This document shows positions 4,808-17,780 of a stretch of DNA of 21,617 nt, in pieces (position 1 is the stretch's first letter; every line of letters begins with the position of its first letter). Origin of the DNA: a virus. The position numbers were made by a program, and so were the translations under genes. The notes beneath the pieces are model-generated. The model made no database searches. It was not told where the DNA came from and was given only the letters and a program-made list of their open reading frames with translations. Location: positions 1-21,617 of the IMG/VR virus record IMGVR_UViG_3300025641_000053; one strand, written 5' to 3'.

Positions 4808-6310
4808 ATGGCAACTAAACAAGAAGTCTATAATACAGATCCTATGTTGTGGAGAAATTTTGTTGACGGTACTGAAAGAGAAAACTACGAAGGTACTGAT
4901 CAAGGCCGAGCATTACAAGACTTAGAGCAGCGTAGAATTAATAGGATTCTTTCTGCTTTAGAGGTTCTTGAGCGTGATCCTTCAACCGTACCCTATGATC
5001 GTTTTGAATCCGATTTAGATAAAGGTCAGATTTATGACTTTTTTGAAAGCGGCGGCTTAGATGCTTCAAGACTAATTCCAGATATAAACGATACTGCTGA
5101 GTTTTCTTCTTATACAGGAGGAGCCGCGCCAGTAAATGAAACAGTACGTTTGTTAGAGTCAGGAGAGGTAAGCTCTTTAGAAGAGCTAGAAAGTAAATAT
5201 CCAGATGTTCATTCTTCTCTTATGGATTACTACGAAGGTGTTGGTGGAGAAGTTAATGATTTAGATGAAAATGCTGATGAGCTAGCTAACGGAGACTCAG
5301 ATCTTTTAGCGGATAACTTAGAAGAAAATCAAACCGATCCAAGTATAGACACTGACGTAGACCTTCCTCCTTTATTACCGGGTCAAGGTATAGTAGATAA
5401 AGCAACAGATGCGGTTACTGGCGTAGTAGATAAAGCAAAAGATGCAATTCCTAGAGATCCTAAAGAGTTCGGAGATTTAATAAGGGCAATTCTTGAAGGA
5501 GGTGGTGTTGGCTTACCTAATGCAGATCCCGAATCAATTTTAGATGGCGGGTTCGGAGGACGTTATGAATTCCCTGCTGGCACATTTAACCCTAATGATA
5601 TTATTGTGCAGGTTCCCGGTGTTCCAGTAGGTGGGCCTCCAAACTCAGTAGACATAGGAACAATTGGAGAGATAATAAACAGCCCCGGAGAAGTATTTGA
5701 TAACGCAATTGATAACATTAAAGATGTTCTTACAGACCCTACTAAAATTGTTACTGGGGCAATTTCAGCAGGAACAGATCTTCCTCCAGATTTAATTAAA
5801 GCTATTCTTGCTGGAACATATGGGCAAGATGTTCTTGATTGGCTTAAGGGTAAAATAGATAACGTAGAAAACTCAATAGATCCACCCATAAGCGGAGAAA
5901 CAGAAGAAGAAACAACAGAGCCTACAAGCCCACCAGAGACTGCTGGAGGAGAGACAACACAAGAGGGTGATCTTACTGTCAATGGTATAGATCCTCGCAA
6001 TGAAAAGCAAGAAACGGTACAAGACCCTTTTACTTTTGGACATGAAAATAGTGACAACCCTGAAGAGCTAACAACAGAAGTTACTTTTTCTGGTTCAGAT
6101 GATCACTTTATTTATGGTGACCCTAACAACGCACAAGAAGAAAATTATTTAAGTGGTGCATCAGGAGCCTTTAGTGGCGGGGGCGGCGGTGGAGCATTTG
6201 ATCCATCTGGCGTACAACTAGGATCTCTAGGAGACCCACAGTTACTGGCGAGATCAGAGTTCCCTATTACTGATTTCTTAGCTGGCATATTTACTGGGAT
6301 AAGAAGATGA
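4808..6310 (+). CDS. Large acidic protein of unknown function, probable virion or tail component
   Basis: I do not recognise this 500-residue protein. The N-terminal 180 residues are strongly acidic and helical, with clusters such as SLEELESKYPDV and DLDENADELA. Around residues 196-216 lie two related stretches (VDKATDAVTGVVDKAKDAI). Residues 215-355 are rich in Pro, Gly, Ile and Asp with repeated DPxxI...AI.G patterns, residues 355-440 are low-complexity Thr/Glu-rich, and residues 456-461 are a Gly run. The tail ends LLARSEFPITDFLAGIF. An AGAAGGT ribosome binding site precedes ATG 4808 and the stop overlaps the start of tail tubular protein A (ATGA), so it is expressed with the tail genes. 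A structural role is inferred only from position; base composition is more AT-rich than in the fibre genes. Confidence 0.7.
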   Translation: MATKQEVYNTDPMLWRNFVDGTERENYEGTDQGRALQDLEQRRINRILSALEVLERDPSTVPYDRFESDLDKGQIYDFFESGGLDASRLIPDINDTAEFSSYTGGAAPVNETVRLLESGEVSSLEELESKYPDVHSSLMDYYEGVGGEVNDLDENADELANGDSDLLADNLEENQTDPSIDTDVDLPPLLPGQGIVDKATDAVTGVVDKAKDAIPRDPKEFGDLIRAILEGGGVGLPNADPESILDGGFGGRYEFPAGTFNPNDIIVQVPGVPVGGPPNSVDIGTIGEIINSPGEVFDNAIDNIKDVLTDPTKIVTGAISAGTDLPPDLIKAILAGTYGQDVLDWLKGKIDNVENSIDPPISGETEEETTEPTSPPETAGGETTQEGDLTVNGIDPRNEKQETVQDPFTFGHENSDNPEELTTEVTFSGSDDHFIYGDPNNAQEENYLSGASGAFSGGGGGGAFDPSGVQLGSLGDPQLLARSEFPITDFLAGIFTGIRR

Positions 6311-6990
6311 CATATTTAGATTTAGTAAATAACGTTCTTAGGCGTATGCGTGAAGAAGAAGTCTCTACTGTAAGCGAAAGCACTTATAGTAAAATGGTAG
6401 GTGATTTTGTTAATGACTCTAAAAAACTTGTAGAAACAAGTTGGGACTGGTCAGCACTGCGTACAACTTTAACTATAGAAACAACGGAAAACATTTTTAA
6501 CTATGTTCTTACAGGAAGCAAAGACAATATTAAAGCTCTTGATGTCATCAACGACACTTCTAATTTTTTTATGGAGTATCGTAATTCTTCATGGTTTGAC
6601 GATAAATACCTCAATGAAACACCGCAAACAGGAACGCCTTCATATTACACCTACAACGGAGTTGATTCCAACGGAGACACACAAATAGACGTGTACCCTA
6701 AGCCAGACGGTGTTTATGTTTTAAGGTTTAACGCGGTTAATCGAGGTACTATTTACGGCGAAAACCAAACTGTTCTTAGGCCAGAAATTTTGTCTGCCGA
6801 CACTGACCAATTGTTAATTCCTTCTTCTCCTGTAATCCATCAAGCGATAGCTATGTTAGCGCGTGAGCGTGGTGAAACTGGAGGAACATCTGCGGCAGAG
6901 TACTTCGGTATTGCTCAGCAGTACTTGTCTGATGCTATTGCTTTAGATGCTCAAAAGCATCCTTATGAAACTGATTGGTATGCACCATAA
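6307..6990 (+). CDS. Tail tubular protein A (T7 gp11-like)
   Basis: The 227-residue protein opens with MTYLDLVNNVLRRMREEEVS and continues KMVGDFVNDSKKLVE, ETSWDWSALR and later IDVYPKPDGVYVLRF. The YLDLVN.VLRR.RE start, the VND.K..VE..WDW motif and the P.PD...LRF segment are hallmarks of podovirus tail tubular protein A. It is close in size to T7 gp11 (196 residues). In T7 this protein forms the dodecameric ring (gatekeeper/adaptor) between portal and nozzle and carries fibre attachment sites. It is followed by tail tubular protein B, as in T7, with a TAATG overlap at 6988-6992. The identification rests on both sequence pattern and gene order. Confidence 0.85.
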   Translation: MTYLDLVNNVLRRMREEEVSTVSESTYSKMVGDFVNDSKKLVETSWDWSALRTTLTIETTENIFNYVLTGSKDNIKALDVINDTSNFFMEYRNSSWFDDKYLNETPQTGTPSYYTYNGVDSNGDTQIDVYPKPDGVYVLRFNAVNRGTIYGENQTVLRPEILSADTDQLLIPSSPVIHQAIAMLARERGETGGTSAAEYFGIAQQYLSDAIALDAQKHPYETDWYAP

Positions 6991-15190: not shown

Positions 15191-15376
15191 ATGAAAGACC
15201 AAACAGAATACATGTCAATGGATCACTACATGAAATCAGATAAAGAGAAGAAGCGGTCTATCAAGATGGCAGAAATGGGGATGCAAACGTGTGCCACCCC
15301 CAGTAAAAGTAACGAAGAGATCCAAGAGCGTGAACAAAAGATGCGAGAAGGTTTAACCGGCTTTTTCTACGGATAG
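15191..15376 (+). CDS. Small hydrophilic protein of unknown function (61 residues)
   Basis: A perfect AAGGAG ribosome binding site (15178-15183) lies 7 bases before ATG 15191, which is the main reason to accept this short gene. The product is highly charged and Met-rich (MKDQTEYMSMDHYMKSDKEK, later EEIQEREQKMREG) and ends GFFYG; it has one Cys and no membrane segment or recognised motif. It lies behind the tail operon terminator, so it needs read-through or its own promoter; I see no convincing promoter in 15146-15177. Its stop is only 4 bases from the stop of the convergent pseudopilin gene. Confidence 0.65.
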   Translation: MKDQTEYMSMDHYMKSDKEKKRSIKMAEMGMQTCATPSKSNEEIQEREQKMREGLTGFFYG

Positions 15377-15380
15377 CACC

Positions 15381-15893
15381 CTATTTACAGGCGCTGTGCC
15401 AGACCTTTTTTTGGTTAGGCTTCTCAGGACATTGTGAAGCGCATTCACCAGTTTCTACAAACGTAGATCCATCTGGCTCTAGATAAATACAGAGAGAGCA
15501 TTCGTTGTGTGTTAAACTAAAACTCTGACATGCGTTACGTGTGTTTCTACCCCAAGAAGAATAACGAACGTGGAGTGGCCCTTCTACATGTACATGTTTA
15601 TTTAATGAGAAGTCCCCAACAACGTGTCCATCAGAGATAACTTCCCAGCCGTTGTCCCACTCTGCTTCTTTTGGTTGTAGTATAGCTGCCTTCGCAGTAA
15701 GTATTGCTTCACTTCGTGTCAGCATCAAAGCTGCCCGGATGTCTGACGAAGTAGCGCGAAGCTTTTGTTTTATAATCATTGATTGATATGGTGGCGCAGA
15801 TAGCGAGATGAGCACCGCTACCATCAACAGTGCCAGCAACATTTCTATAAAAGTAAACCCGGCTACCCATGCCCATCTATATTTTGTCGACAT
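15381..15893 (-). CDS. Type IV pilin-like minor pseudopilin (FimT/GspH type) encoded by phage
   Basis: The 170-residue protein has a complete class III (prepilin) signal: a 12-residue basic leader ending in Gly12, then FTFIEMLLALLMVAVLISLS with Glu at mature position +5 (Glu17) and Pro34-Pro35 after the hydrophobic helix. Prepilin peptidase would cut Gly12|Phe13. Residues 51-64 (DIRAALMLTRSEAI) match the LARSEAI signature of the FimT/GspH group, followed by W79 and NGW(81-83)EVISDG, the start of its beta domain. Six cysteines (122, 132, 135, 151, 155, 169) lie in the C-terminal part, which would be periplasmic. FimT-type proteins are minor pilins of type IV pili, some binding DNA in natural transformation; GspH is a type II secretion pseudopilin. 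The gene is 15 bases behind the ribonucleotide reductase. Pseudopilin identity is strong; what it does for the phage is unknown. Confidence 0.88.
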   Translation of the reverse strand: MSTKYRWAWVAGFTFIEMLLALLMVAVLISLSAPPYQSMIIKQKLRATSSDIRAALMLTRSEAILTAKAAILQPKEAEWDNGWEVISDGHVVGDFSLNKHVHVEGPLHVRYSSWGRNTRNACQSFSLTHNECSLCIYLEPDGSTFVETGECASQCPEKPNQKKVWHSACK

Positions 15894-15900
15894 TATCGTA

Positions 15901-15906
15901 CTCCTT
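15901..15906 (-). promoter_or_regulatory. Ribosome binding site of the pseudopilin gene
   Basis: On the minus strand AAGGAG lies 7 bases before the ATG at 15893, between the reductase stop (15909) and the pseudopilin start. A perfect site indicates that the pseudopilin is translated efficiently in its own right and fixes the start that gives the 12-residue prepilin leader. Confidence 0.75.
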
Positions 15907-15908
15907 AG

Positions 15909-17780
15909 TTATATTTCGCACGAATTGCCTACACAGGCGAGTGTCTGAGAACCTTCTGTTTTATCTTCGTGTTCTACGATGTCCCAGTCGATCACCGTGG
16001 GTATGTCCTTCACTAGTTTGTCATAGGTGGCACTGTCGATCTCCTCGTAGGGTGCCTGTTGATACGTATGCTCAGAGTACGGCAGGAAGCTAATACCAGA
16101 TACGTCGTCAAAATTATTATATAGCCACTGCCCTACTTCCATGAACTCAGAGTCCTTGTAATAGACGGTGATGCTCGGCTTGTGCTCACACCAGTTATCT
16201 TGATAGATCTTCCACAGGCGTAGCTGCTCCATAGCACCCACCTCAGACGTGCACACAGCGCCCTCTGGAGCCTTTTGAACGAAGCTGAATACCTTGGTAT
16301 TGGGTGACATCACATCGTTCTCTACGGGCACACCAGCGGCCTCTAAGACACCACAAAGGGGGTCATCAGCAGAACCTCTTACTCGTCGGATGTATTGCTT
16401 TGCGAAGCGAGGGTGTATTCCCGAAGCAGAATCAACAAGCTGGCTGACAGTACCAGAGGGCTTAACAGCAGTAACAGCAGTAGAAGGGTTAATCCCAAGC
16501 TTTTTAGCCCACTCCTGATTGGTCTGTATAGCCTCATCGCGCATTTCGCTAAGCCATTTCTTAAGCTGCTTCTCATCTTTAGCTCCTGATAAAACTGGGT
16601 GATCCATAATCCCTGTGAGAGACACACCTAATAAAGCTTCCTCTTCAGTATTCTGCTTCCAGATCTTACGAAGGTAACGGAAGTCTGTCAGTGTTGCTTG
16701 GAGCGTACCTAAGATCGCAGCAACTCGTACCTTTCTTTTGAGATCCTTCAGCGTATCTTCTGATCTAACAACAACTTCAGACAGATTACAAAACTGATAG
16801 GGACGTAAGATTATTTCGCTGCACGGGTTAGTGCCGAATTCCCAATCTGCATCGCGACGACCGTTCTTTGCAGCTTGCTTCTGACTTGCGACTCGGCTGA
16901 ACATTCCGCGTTCACCTGAGAAAGATTCGTACAGGCTCTTCCACTCGTTTAGAAACGCAGGGAAGTCAGGCTTCTCTGTGTAACAGGCTGAGTTATTTGC
17001 TAGACCCCGCTGCGGGTTGTCTATCCACCACTGTCCTGTCTTAGCTCGTCGGATTCGATCATCGGTAAGGTTACTAAGACTGATGAGTGCGCTTCGTCGG
17101 ACTCCTCCAACAACGACGACCTGTGCAATCTTACAGCAGAGATCGTGACATTCGATGGAACTAAGCTTTCGTCCATAAGCTGAGAGAAAGACTTCAACGG
17201 TGAATTTGAACAAATCTTCAAGAGGTTCTGGGCCAGACGCTCTGCCGCCAAAGGTTCTGAGCGCGGCACCAGCAGGTCGTACTCCGCTTGTATCCCACTT
17301 TGGCACTTGACCCGAATAGAGCATGGCAATAAGCTCTCGGTATGCTTTCGCCCATCCAATTTTACTGTCTGCGACATGTATAACACTCTCGGTTTCATGG
17401 AAGTGCTCCGCTATCTCTGGTAATTTAGAAATGTACTGTCGTTCGACGCTGAAGCCCACCCCTGTTCCGCACATAAGCACAAACATAAGCTCGTCAAACG
17501 CTTTGGGGTGGTCAATAGGTAGGTAAGAGCAGTTGAACCCTGCAACGTTATCCCGGTCGAGTGCTGAACCTGCTGTCATTAACGCTCTCATTGAAGGCAT
17601 GACCTCCAGATTCGTGATGGCCTCAGTGACAACAGATACATCCTCACCCTTCAAAGCTTCACGGTCAATCCAGAATTGCACATATCTATTAACCGTCTCT
17701 TCCCATGTCTCTCTCCGCTGCTCTTCTGGTAGGTATCGTGCGTAACGTGATTTTGCTATATATTGTTGATATGCGTCCAT
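15909..17780 (-). CDS. Adenosylcobalamin-dependent (class II, monomeric) ribonucleotide reductase
   Basis: The 623-residue enzyme would reduce ribonucleotides (triphosphates in the family's model enzyme from Lactobacillus leichmannii, 739 residues) to deoxyribonucleotides using coenzyme B12 to make the radical. All five key cysteines can be placed: Cys84 (GFNCSYLP) and Cys331 (FCNLSE) form the active-site pair, Cys320 in NPCSEI carries the thiyl radical with Glu322 beside it, and Cys616/Cys621 form the C-terminal CX4C shuttle (CVGNSCEI). Other family blocks are VLMCGTGVGFSVE, GVRRSALISLS and AVKPSGTVSQLVDS. It is shorter than the model enzyme, as is usual in phages. The start codon follows the previous stop directly, with GGAGG upstream inside that gene. 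Dependence on B12 means the host must make or import cobalamin. No thioredoxin or glutaredoxin gene is visible. Confidence 0.95.
   Translation of the reverse strand: MDAYQQYIAKSRYARYLPEEQRRETWEETVNRYVQFWIDREALKGEDVSVVTEAITNLEVMPSMRALMTAGSALDRDNVAGFNCSYLPIDHPKAFDELMFVLMCGTGVGFSVERQYISKLPEIAEHFHETESVIHVADSKIGWAKAYRELIAMLYSGQVPKWDTSGVRPAGAALRTFGGRASGPEPLEDLFKFTVEVFLSAYGRKLSSIECHDLCCKIAQVVVVGGVRRSALISLSNLTDDRIRRAKTGQWWIDNPQRGLANNSACYTEKPDFPAFLNEWKSLYESFSGERGMFSRVASQKQAAKNGRRDADWEFGTNPCSEIILRPYQFCNLSEVVVRSEDTLKDLKRKVRVAAILGTLQATLTDFRYLRKIWKQNTEEEALLGVSLTGIMDHPVLSGAKDEKQLKKWLSEMRDEAIQTNQEWAKKLGINPSTAVTAVKPSGTVSQLVDSASGIHPRFAKQYIRRVRGSADDPLCGVLEAAGVPVENDVMSPNTKVFSFVQKAPEGAVCTSEVGAMEQLRLWKIYQDNWCEHKPSITVYYKDSEFMEVGQWLYNNFDDVSGISFLPYSEHTYQQAPYEEIDSATYDKLVKDIPTVIDWDIVEHEDKTEGSQTLACVGNSCEI

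Follow-up and report, generated by a model that had tools for sequence, protein, structure and literature searches.

How does a gene for a pilin-like protein come to close the replication module of a marine podovirus, and what could its product do for the phage? The window, the whole stretch of 21,617 nt analysed here, belongs to a T7-like phage and carries at 15381..15893 (minus strand) an ORF that an earlier note, made from the letters of the sequence, had read as a FimT/GspH-type pseudopilin with a possible role in superinfection exclusion, DNA uptake or secretion.

Family and predicted fold of the window pilin

The ORF has an ATG start and encodes a 170 aa protein that is confirmed as a full-length minor pseudopilin of the GspH/FimT family and as a genuine phage gene. 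It is the last leftward gene of the phage replication module, as had been proposed, and the next ORF (15191..15376, plus strand) is convergent. A gap of 15 nt separates its start from the stop, at 15909, of a class II (B12-dependent) ribonucleotide reductase gene (phrog_367; 15909..17780, minus strand), and a Shine-Dalgarno sequence, AAGGAG (15901..15906, minus strand), lies 7 nt ahead of the ATG. The prepilin leader, MSTKYRWAWVAG (15858..15893, minus strand), runs up to a predicted cleavage site between Gly12 and Phe13, followed by Glu17 at +5 and by the hydrophobic N-terminal helix of the mature pilin, alpha1-N, which is placed at 15792..15857 (minus strand) by both sequence and model. The motifs LTRSEAI (residues 58-64) and NGW (residues 81-83) are mostly kept in the alignment across cellular FimT and FimU proteins. 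All the features that the earlier note had listed, namely the leader, Glu at +5, the helix, both motifs, the ribosome binding site and the 15-base gap, are present in the sequence.

The HMM search proposed at that time places the protein just above two cut-offs, with 21.3 bits for Pfam GspH (PF12019; cut-off 21) and 16.8 bits for NCBIfam TIGR02532 (IV_pilin_GFxxxE; cut-off 16.3), each marginal taken alone, and below the cut-off of Pfam N_methyl (14.3 bits). The homologue encoded by T4-like phages scores higher (GspH 25.4, N_methyl 22.6), and a two-sequence viral profile retrieves cellular GspH/FimT proteins at E = 1.7e-19 to 1e-12 from the class to which a Porticoccaceae genome belongs (gammaproteobacteria). 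Gly-1, Thr, Glu+5, Pro, RxEAI, W..GWxV and a C-terminal Gly and Cys are kept in the alignment of viral and cellular sequences. The cellular searches found no close cellular copy of the window pilin, and a profile search of PDB sequences returned chiefly N-terminal helix matches to other pilins.

An AlphaFold model of the window pilin, built from 12 rows (pLDDT 81), comprises an alpha1 helix in two parts together with beta-sheets. The first seven Foldseek matches are FimU (five chains, E ~3e-8 to 6e-7), an Xcp pseudopilus chain and EpsH, and VIA-align superimposes the model onto FimU with a Z of 15.4 over 120 residues (rmsd 2.2 A), compared with 10.8 for GspH, 10.5 for EpsH and ~5.5 for major pilins. 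By its predicted fold the product is therefore a FimU-like minor pilin, and the identification as a FimT/GspH-type pseudopilin is borne out by the GspH score, the cellular profile matches and a model that resembles pseudopilins, FimU of P. aeruginosa best by a clear margin. FimU (PDB 4IPU, 4IPV) is the closest structural match despite only 13% identity. It differs in its setting, as cellular FimU belongs to a minor pilin operon with pilVWXY1E whereas the phage gene sits in a replication module and no further pilus gene was recognised in the window. The type II secretion proteins GspH, EpsH and XcpU share the family and the fold (Z ~10 to 11) but are structurally more distant than FimU, and nothing here ties the phage pilin to secretion.

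The phage protein also differs from FimU in an extra C-terminal segment with cysteines, SQCPEKPNQKKVWHSACK (15384..15437, minus strand), which is kept in the T4-like homologue and has no counterpart in the cellular relatives aligned here. The alignments make the viral forms ~18 residues longer than their cellular relatives, adding two cysteines. Six cysteines are common to the window and T4-like pilins; in cellular FimU a D-region disulphide closes the C-terminus. The DNA-uptake minor pilin FimT of Legionella belongs to the same Pfam family (PF12019), but DNA-binding FimT carries a C-terminal GRxR motif (PMC8897410) and a positive charge, and the phage pilin lacks both. The aligned site reads GSTF in the window pilin and GSSF in the T4-like pilin, and the C-terminal 50 residues carry a net charge of -2 and -4, respectively. 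On motif and charge, a reading of the predicted protein as a DNA-uptake FimT is rejected.

The insertion slot beside the reductase

The genomic setting was assessed by comparing the 80 closest IMG/VR relatives of the reductase (78-97% identity), 73 of which have at least 600 nt of sequence downstream. None of the 80 has a pilin beside the reductase, and the T4-like pilin lies away from the reductase gene, which contradicts the expectation of a conserved reductase-pseudopilin pair; a functional link between the two genes was dropped on the same count. This bears on the suggestion that the pilin promotes DNA uptake and thereby feeds the reductase and exonuclease with nucleotides, or, in a variant, that it raises the minor-to-major pilin ratio and stimulates pilus dynamics. 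The neighbouring reductase gene is in keeping with such a role, and in V. cholerae the four minor pilins, when overexpressed together, make pili more dynamic and increase DNA uptake (PMC13249403). Set against this are the absence of the pairing from all 80 relatives, the missing GRxR motif, the acidic C-terminus and a fold nearest to FimU, which in P. aeruginosa does not bind DNA (PMC8897410), so that nucleotide scavenging is a very improbable function.

The slot into which the pilin gene falls is bounded on its left flank by the reductase gene and on its right flank by the convergent ORF, a conserved 61 aa frame. Two contigs whose reductase genes are 94.5% identical to that of the window at the nucleotide level (L135, L136) and a third at 87% (L137) have the reductase followed directly by this same convergent ORF, of 60-62 aa. 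The BLAST alignment with L137 delimits an inserted segment, 15387..15908, that is missing there, the reductase stop of L137 abutting sequence that matches window position 15386 with no gap. In a fourth relative, L134 (reductase 93.7% identical at the nucleotide level), the slot is occupied by an endonuclease gene with HNH_3 and AP2 domains (L134:4888-5517), a make-up that we take to be that of a free-standing homing endonuclease.

The BLAST homology between the window and L134 passes beyond the reductase through the intergenic sequence, the shared Shine-Dalgarno sequence, the ATG and the opening codons, as far as position 15859. The start of the window gene, ATGTCGACAAA and ATATAGATGGGCATGGGTAGCCGGG on either side of a 3-nt gap, agrees with ATGTCGACAAATAAATATAGATTTGTATCGGTAGACGGC of L134 at 30/36 aligned bases by hand count, this being the only gap, and the encoded starts are MST-KYRWAWVAG and MSTNKYRFVSVDG. 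The simplest reading of these sequences, drawn from this one sister locus, is an in-frame fusion at the glycine of the cleavage site, by which pilin sequence was joined to the beginning of an endonuclease gene and came to use its translation start. The opposite direction, from pilin to endonuclease, is less likely in view of the ordinary leader (MTTQRG) of the T4-like form. The window leader thus appears to be chimeric, unlike that of the T4-like pilin, and the earlier description of a full prepilin leader needs qualification, as the Gly12/Phe13 site is present but MSTKYRWAWVAG seems to have come from the 5' end of an HNH endonuclease gene. If read correctly, the locus shows that a coding sequence is able to displace an endonuclease gene and take over its translation start. 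From these comparisons the window pilin is a mobile accessory gene, or moron, that was recently inserted into the slot.

A more trivial origin would be a host gene fragment misassembled onto the phage, and it is true that a second record of the locus (L003) and one of the T4-like contigs (L002) both break off within the pilin gene, the usual behaviour of contigs at shared sequence. L003, however, represents the same phage in a different metagenome, with 100% identity over 6,067 nt that span the reductase-pilin junction, which is accordingly found in two metagenome records. In near-identical phages the two flanks adjoin each other, which places the pilin inside one phage genome, and the existence of a homologue in T4-like contigs, together with the lack of a close cellular copy, likewise speaks against misassembly. 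The gene is phage-borne, and the probability of an artefact is close to negligible.

T4-like copies and other phage pilins

A scan of IMG/VR with the window pilin yields three loci, L003 and two T4-like contigs (L001, L002) whose pilins are 67-68% identical to that of the window. The T4-like markers of these contigs are NrdA/NrdB, PhoH and an RNase H-like protein, with a gp41-like helicase recognised by eye. Their pilin gene lies between an exonuclease gene (phrog_298) and iscU, with one small ORF before iscU, and the reductase is encoded elsewhere. The iscU gene (NifU_N) and an IscA-like gene beside it (L001:10845-11538) are host-derived iron-sulphur assembly genes. In a further T4-like contig, L297, whose exonuclease is 81% identical, only 'MTTQRGFTFIEL' of the pilin is retained, followed by a short unrelated tail before iscU, which means loss or replacement of the pilin in this contig. 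L001 and L002 are ~25-30% divergent up to L001:9783 and then 99.9% identical to the end of L002; the near-identical stretch (L001:9784-10477) takes in the pilin gene and the end of the exonuclease gene, and the switch may reflect either recent recombination or an assembly chimera at the contig end. Taken together, the comparisons indicate a pilin gene that is gained and lost in both phage types, the podovirus and the T4-like phages, and provide evidence of gene movement between unrelated phages with a clear empty site.

Between the window podovirus and the T4-like pilin, dN is 0.20 and dS 1.14, giving a dN/dS of ~0.18, which indicates purifying selection over the shared podovirus/T4-like history of the gene though not necessarily in the window phage since the insertion. 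This matters for the view that the pilin is a selfish or near-neutral passenger, a recent cassette that arrived by recombination at a homing-endonuclease site and has little effect on the phage. The insertion is indeed recent, with no counterpart in the near relatives examined, the pilin appears to use the beginning of an endonuclease gene, and the pilin gene is easily lost, as L297 illustrates. Conversely, the low dN/dS, the intact ORF with its full predicted fold and good ribosome binding site, and the occurrence of same-family pilins in other phage lineages (L075/L076, JBD68, L082) all count against this view, and a mere passenger seems rather unlikely.

The closest functional precedent is P-FimU, encoded by the temperate Pseudomonas phage JBD68 and reported to be built into pili where it replaces the host FimU (PMC12826054). 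P-FimU leaves the pilus working and is thought to stop later infection, i.e. to confer superinfection exclusion (PMC12826054). Like P-FimU, the window protein is a phage-encoded minor pilin of the GspH/FimT type with a prepilin N-terminus and the tip of the host pilus as likely target, and like a P-FimU-type moron it occupies an accessory position, its slot being empty or HNH-filled in near-identical phages. The differences lie in size and setting: P-FimU has 213 aa and is found in temperate siphophages, its gene located between those for the major tail protein and the tape measure, whereas the marine pilin occurs in a T7-like podovirus and in T4-like phages, adjoins replication genes and is polymorphic. 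The earlier note had held a pilin-like mimic to be different in kind from the known phage tricks; P-FimU already is one (PMC12826054). The kind is thus known, and what is new is the phage type, the mobility and the genomic mechanism, since phage-encoded minor pilins, so far a feature of temperate Pseudomonas siphophages, now also come from T7-like and T4-like phages whose hosts are uncultured. Tip and Aqs1, which inhibit PilB, and pVII of Pf4 are further cases of phage interference with type IV pili and superinfection exclusion (PMC11436027, PMC12826054), but these small proteins are unrelated, target the pilus motor or its partners and are not copies of pilins.

With the window, T4-like or L076 pilin proteins as queries no match was found among isolated phages. 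Generic pilin queries detect a gene in JBD68, F10, Ostro, LESphi2 and LESphi3, as well as in records labelled Acinetobacter phage MD-2021a and in one Salmonella Infantis record. In F10, JBD68 and Ostro it directly follows the major tail protein gene, and the JBD68 gene (L078:2992-3633) is taken as P-FimU because it is the gene of pilin type detected in that genome. Aligned by hhalign, P-FimU shares only 54 N-terminal columns, the N-terminal helix, with the viral profile. In a tree of phage and cellular pilins the phage rows are scattered and P-FimU stands apart from the window pilin, most branches being weakly supported, and independent captures of pilins by phages are suggested.

Other contigs encode pilins of their own. 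L075 and L076 (both at 5986-6567), which contain podovirus-like structural modules, have a GspH-family gene (29-32 bits) that runs counter to the tail genes on the other strand, and their pilins are 80% identical with a dN/dS of ~0.11. A further IMG/VR scan produced 49 contigs with pilin N-termini. L082/L083 encode a FimT-type protein of 179 aa adjoining a phage integrase, and five contigs (L112, L115, L124, L126, L128) encode pilin-like proteins of 64-65 aa with a prepilin N-terminus and one cysteine pair, which may be decoy mini-pilins. One pilin family is common to a group of viral contigs of up to 125 kb (L091, L087, L086, L089, L090, L093-L096, L101, L102, L104-L106, L110, L111 and L117). 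Within it, L091:2929-4836 holds three consecutive genes with N_methyl above the cut-off; ahead of them lie another pilin-like ORF and a separate ORF whose product, judged by eye, looks like the N-terminal domain of a PilB/GspE-type ATPase, with no support from Pfam. The neighbours in L087 are a DNA primase, an SbcC-like protein and a Holliday resolvase. T4-like contigs with runs of three pilins may be a more novel find than the window pilin. Literature searches found no paper on pilins in marine phages.

Proposed action on the host pilus

The best reading of the window protein is a FimU-like decoy that would remodel or poison the tip of the host pilus. In its fuller form, that of a mobile FimU-like minor pilin (moron) which alters the pilus tip and excludes rival pilus-dependent phages, it is given about an even chance. 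We infer each step of the mechanism: after infection the product would enter the host inner membrane, where the host prepilin peptidase (PilD) would cut the leader, and the phage-expressed pilin could then compete with the host FimU (or GspH) for entry into the tip-initiation complex of type IV pili. These would acquire an altered tip or be assembled less, and other pilus-dependent phages would fail to adsorb to the already infected cell. Among the roles first put forward, superinfection exclusion through the host pilus is accordingly the best supported, the precedent being P-FimU (PMC12826054). Counting against this reading are the unusual chimeric leader, with which, as with an N_methyl score below the cut-off, cleavage by PilD is not assured, and a kinship with P-FimU limited to the 54 N-terminal columns. 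A changed minor-to-major pilin ratio alters pilus dynamics in V. cholerae (PMC13249403), and by analogy changed dynamics are another possible outcome of the phage pilin.

The pilin might instead join the initiation complex of a type IV pilus or type II secretion system and block assembly, so that the effect would be jamming rather than substitution of the tip. The GspH/FimT-family evidence serves this poison subunit equally well, the long cysteine-bearing C-terminal extension and the lost cellular C-terminal motifs could spoil contacts, GspH and EpsH are the next structural matches (Z ~10.5), and minor pseudopilins of type II secretion systems can cross-complement the competence pilus of V. 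cholerae (PMC13249403). As P-FimU, the one phage minor pilin found here that has been studied, leaves the pilus functional (PMC12826054) and the fold is nearer to FimU than to GspH, jamming is considered unlikely.

If the reading of a FimU-like decoy at the pilus tip is true, pilin-carrying phages would shield the cell that they have infected against competing pilus-dependent phages, either exchanging or poisoning a subunit of the tip. More broadly, pilins may be a mobile currency of marine, probably lytic phages and host-pilus remodelling a general, largely undescribed strategy, a tentative proposal held at somewhat less than an even chance. It draws on the transfer between T7-like and T4-like phages, the homing-endonuclease slot, the pilins that other phage groups have of their own and the T4-like run of three pilins.

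No integrase was present among the scanned proteins of the window and L003, in which the genome is incomplete, and the window phage is apparently lytic; the benefit of superinfection exclusion is less obvious for such a phage, with its short infection, than for a prophage. A further point against the decoy reading is that the window reductase and polymerase are nearest to those of phages of marine alphaproteobacteria (roseobacter, SAR11), in contrast to the pilin, whose best cellular relatives found are gammaproteobacterial. At the other end of the window, positions 2-1135 encode a tail protein with many degenerate 'AVAVGxxAGxxTQG' repeats and then, by eye, a chaperone-like end of the intramolecular type (SDIKLKDNIE...), and a second chaperone-like end is encoded at 1212-1838.
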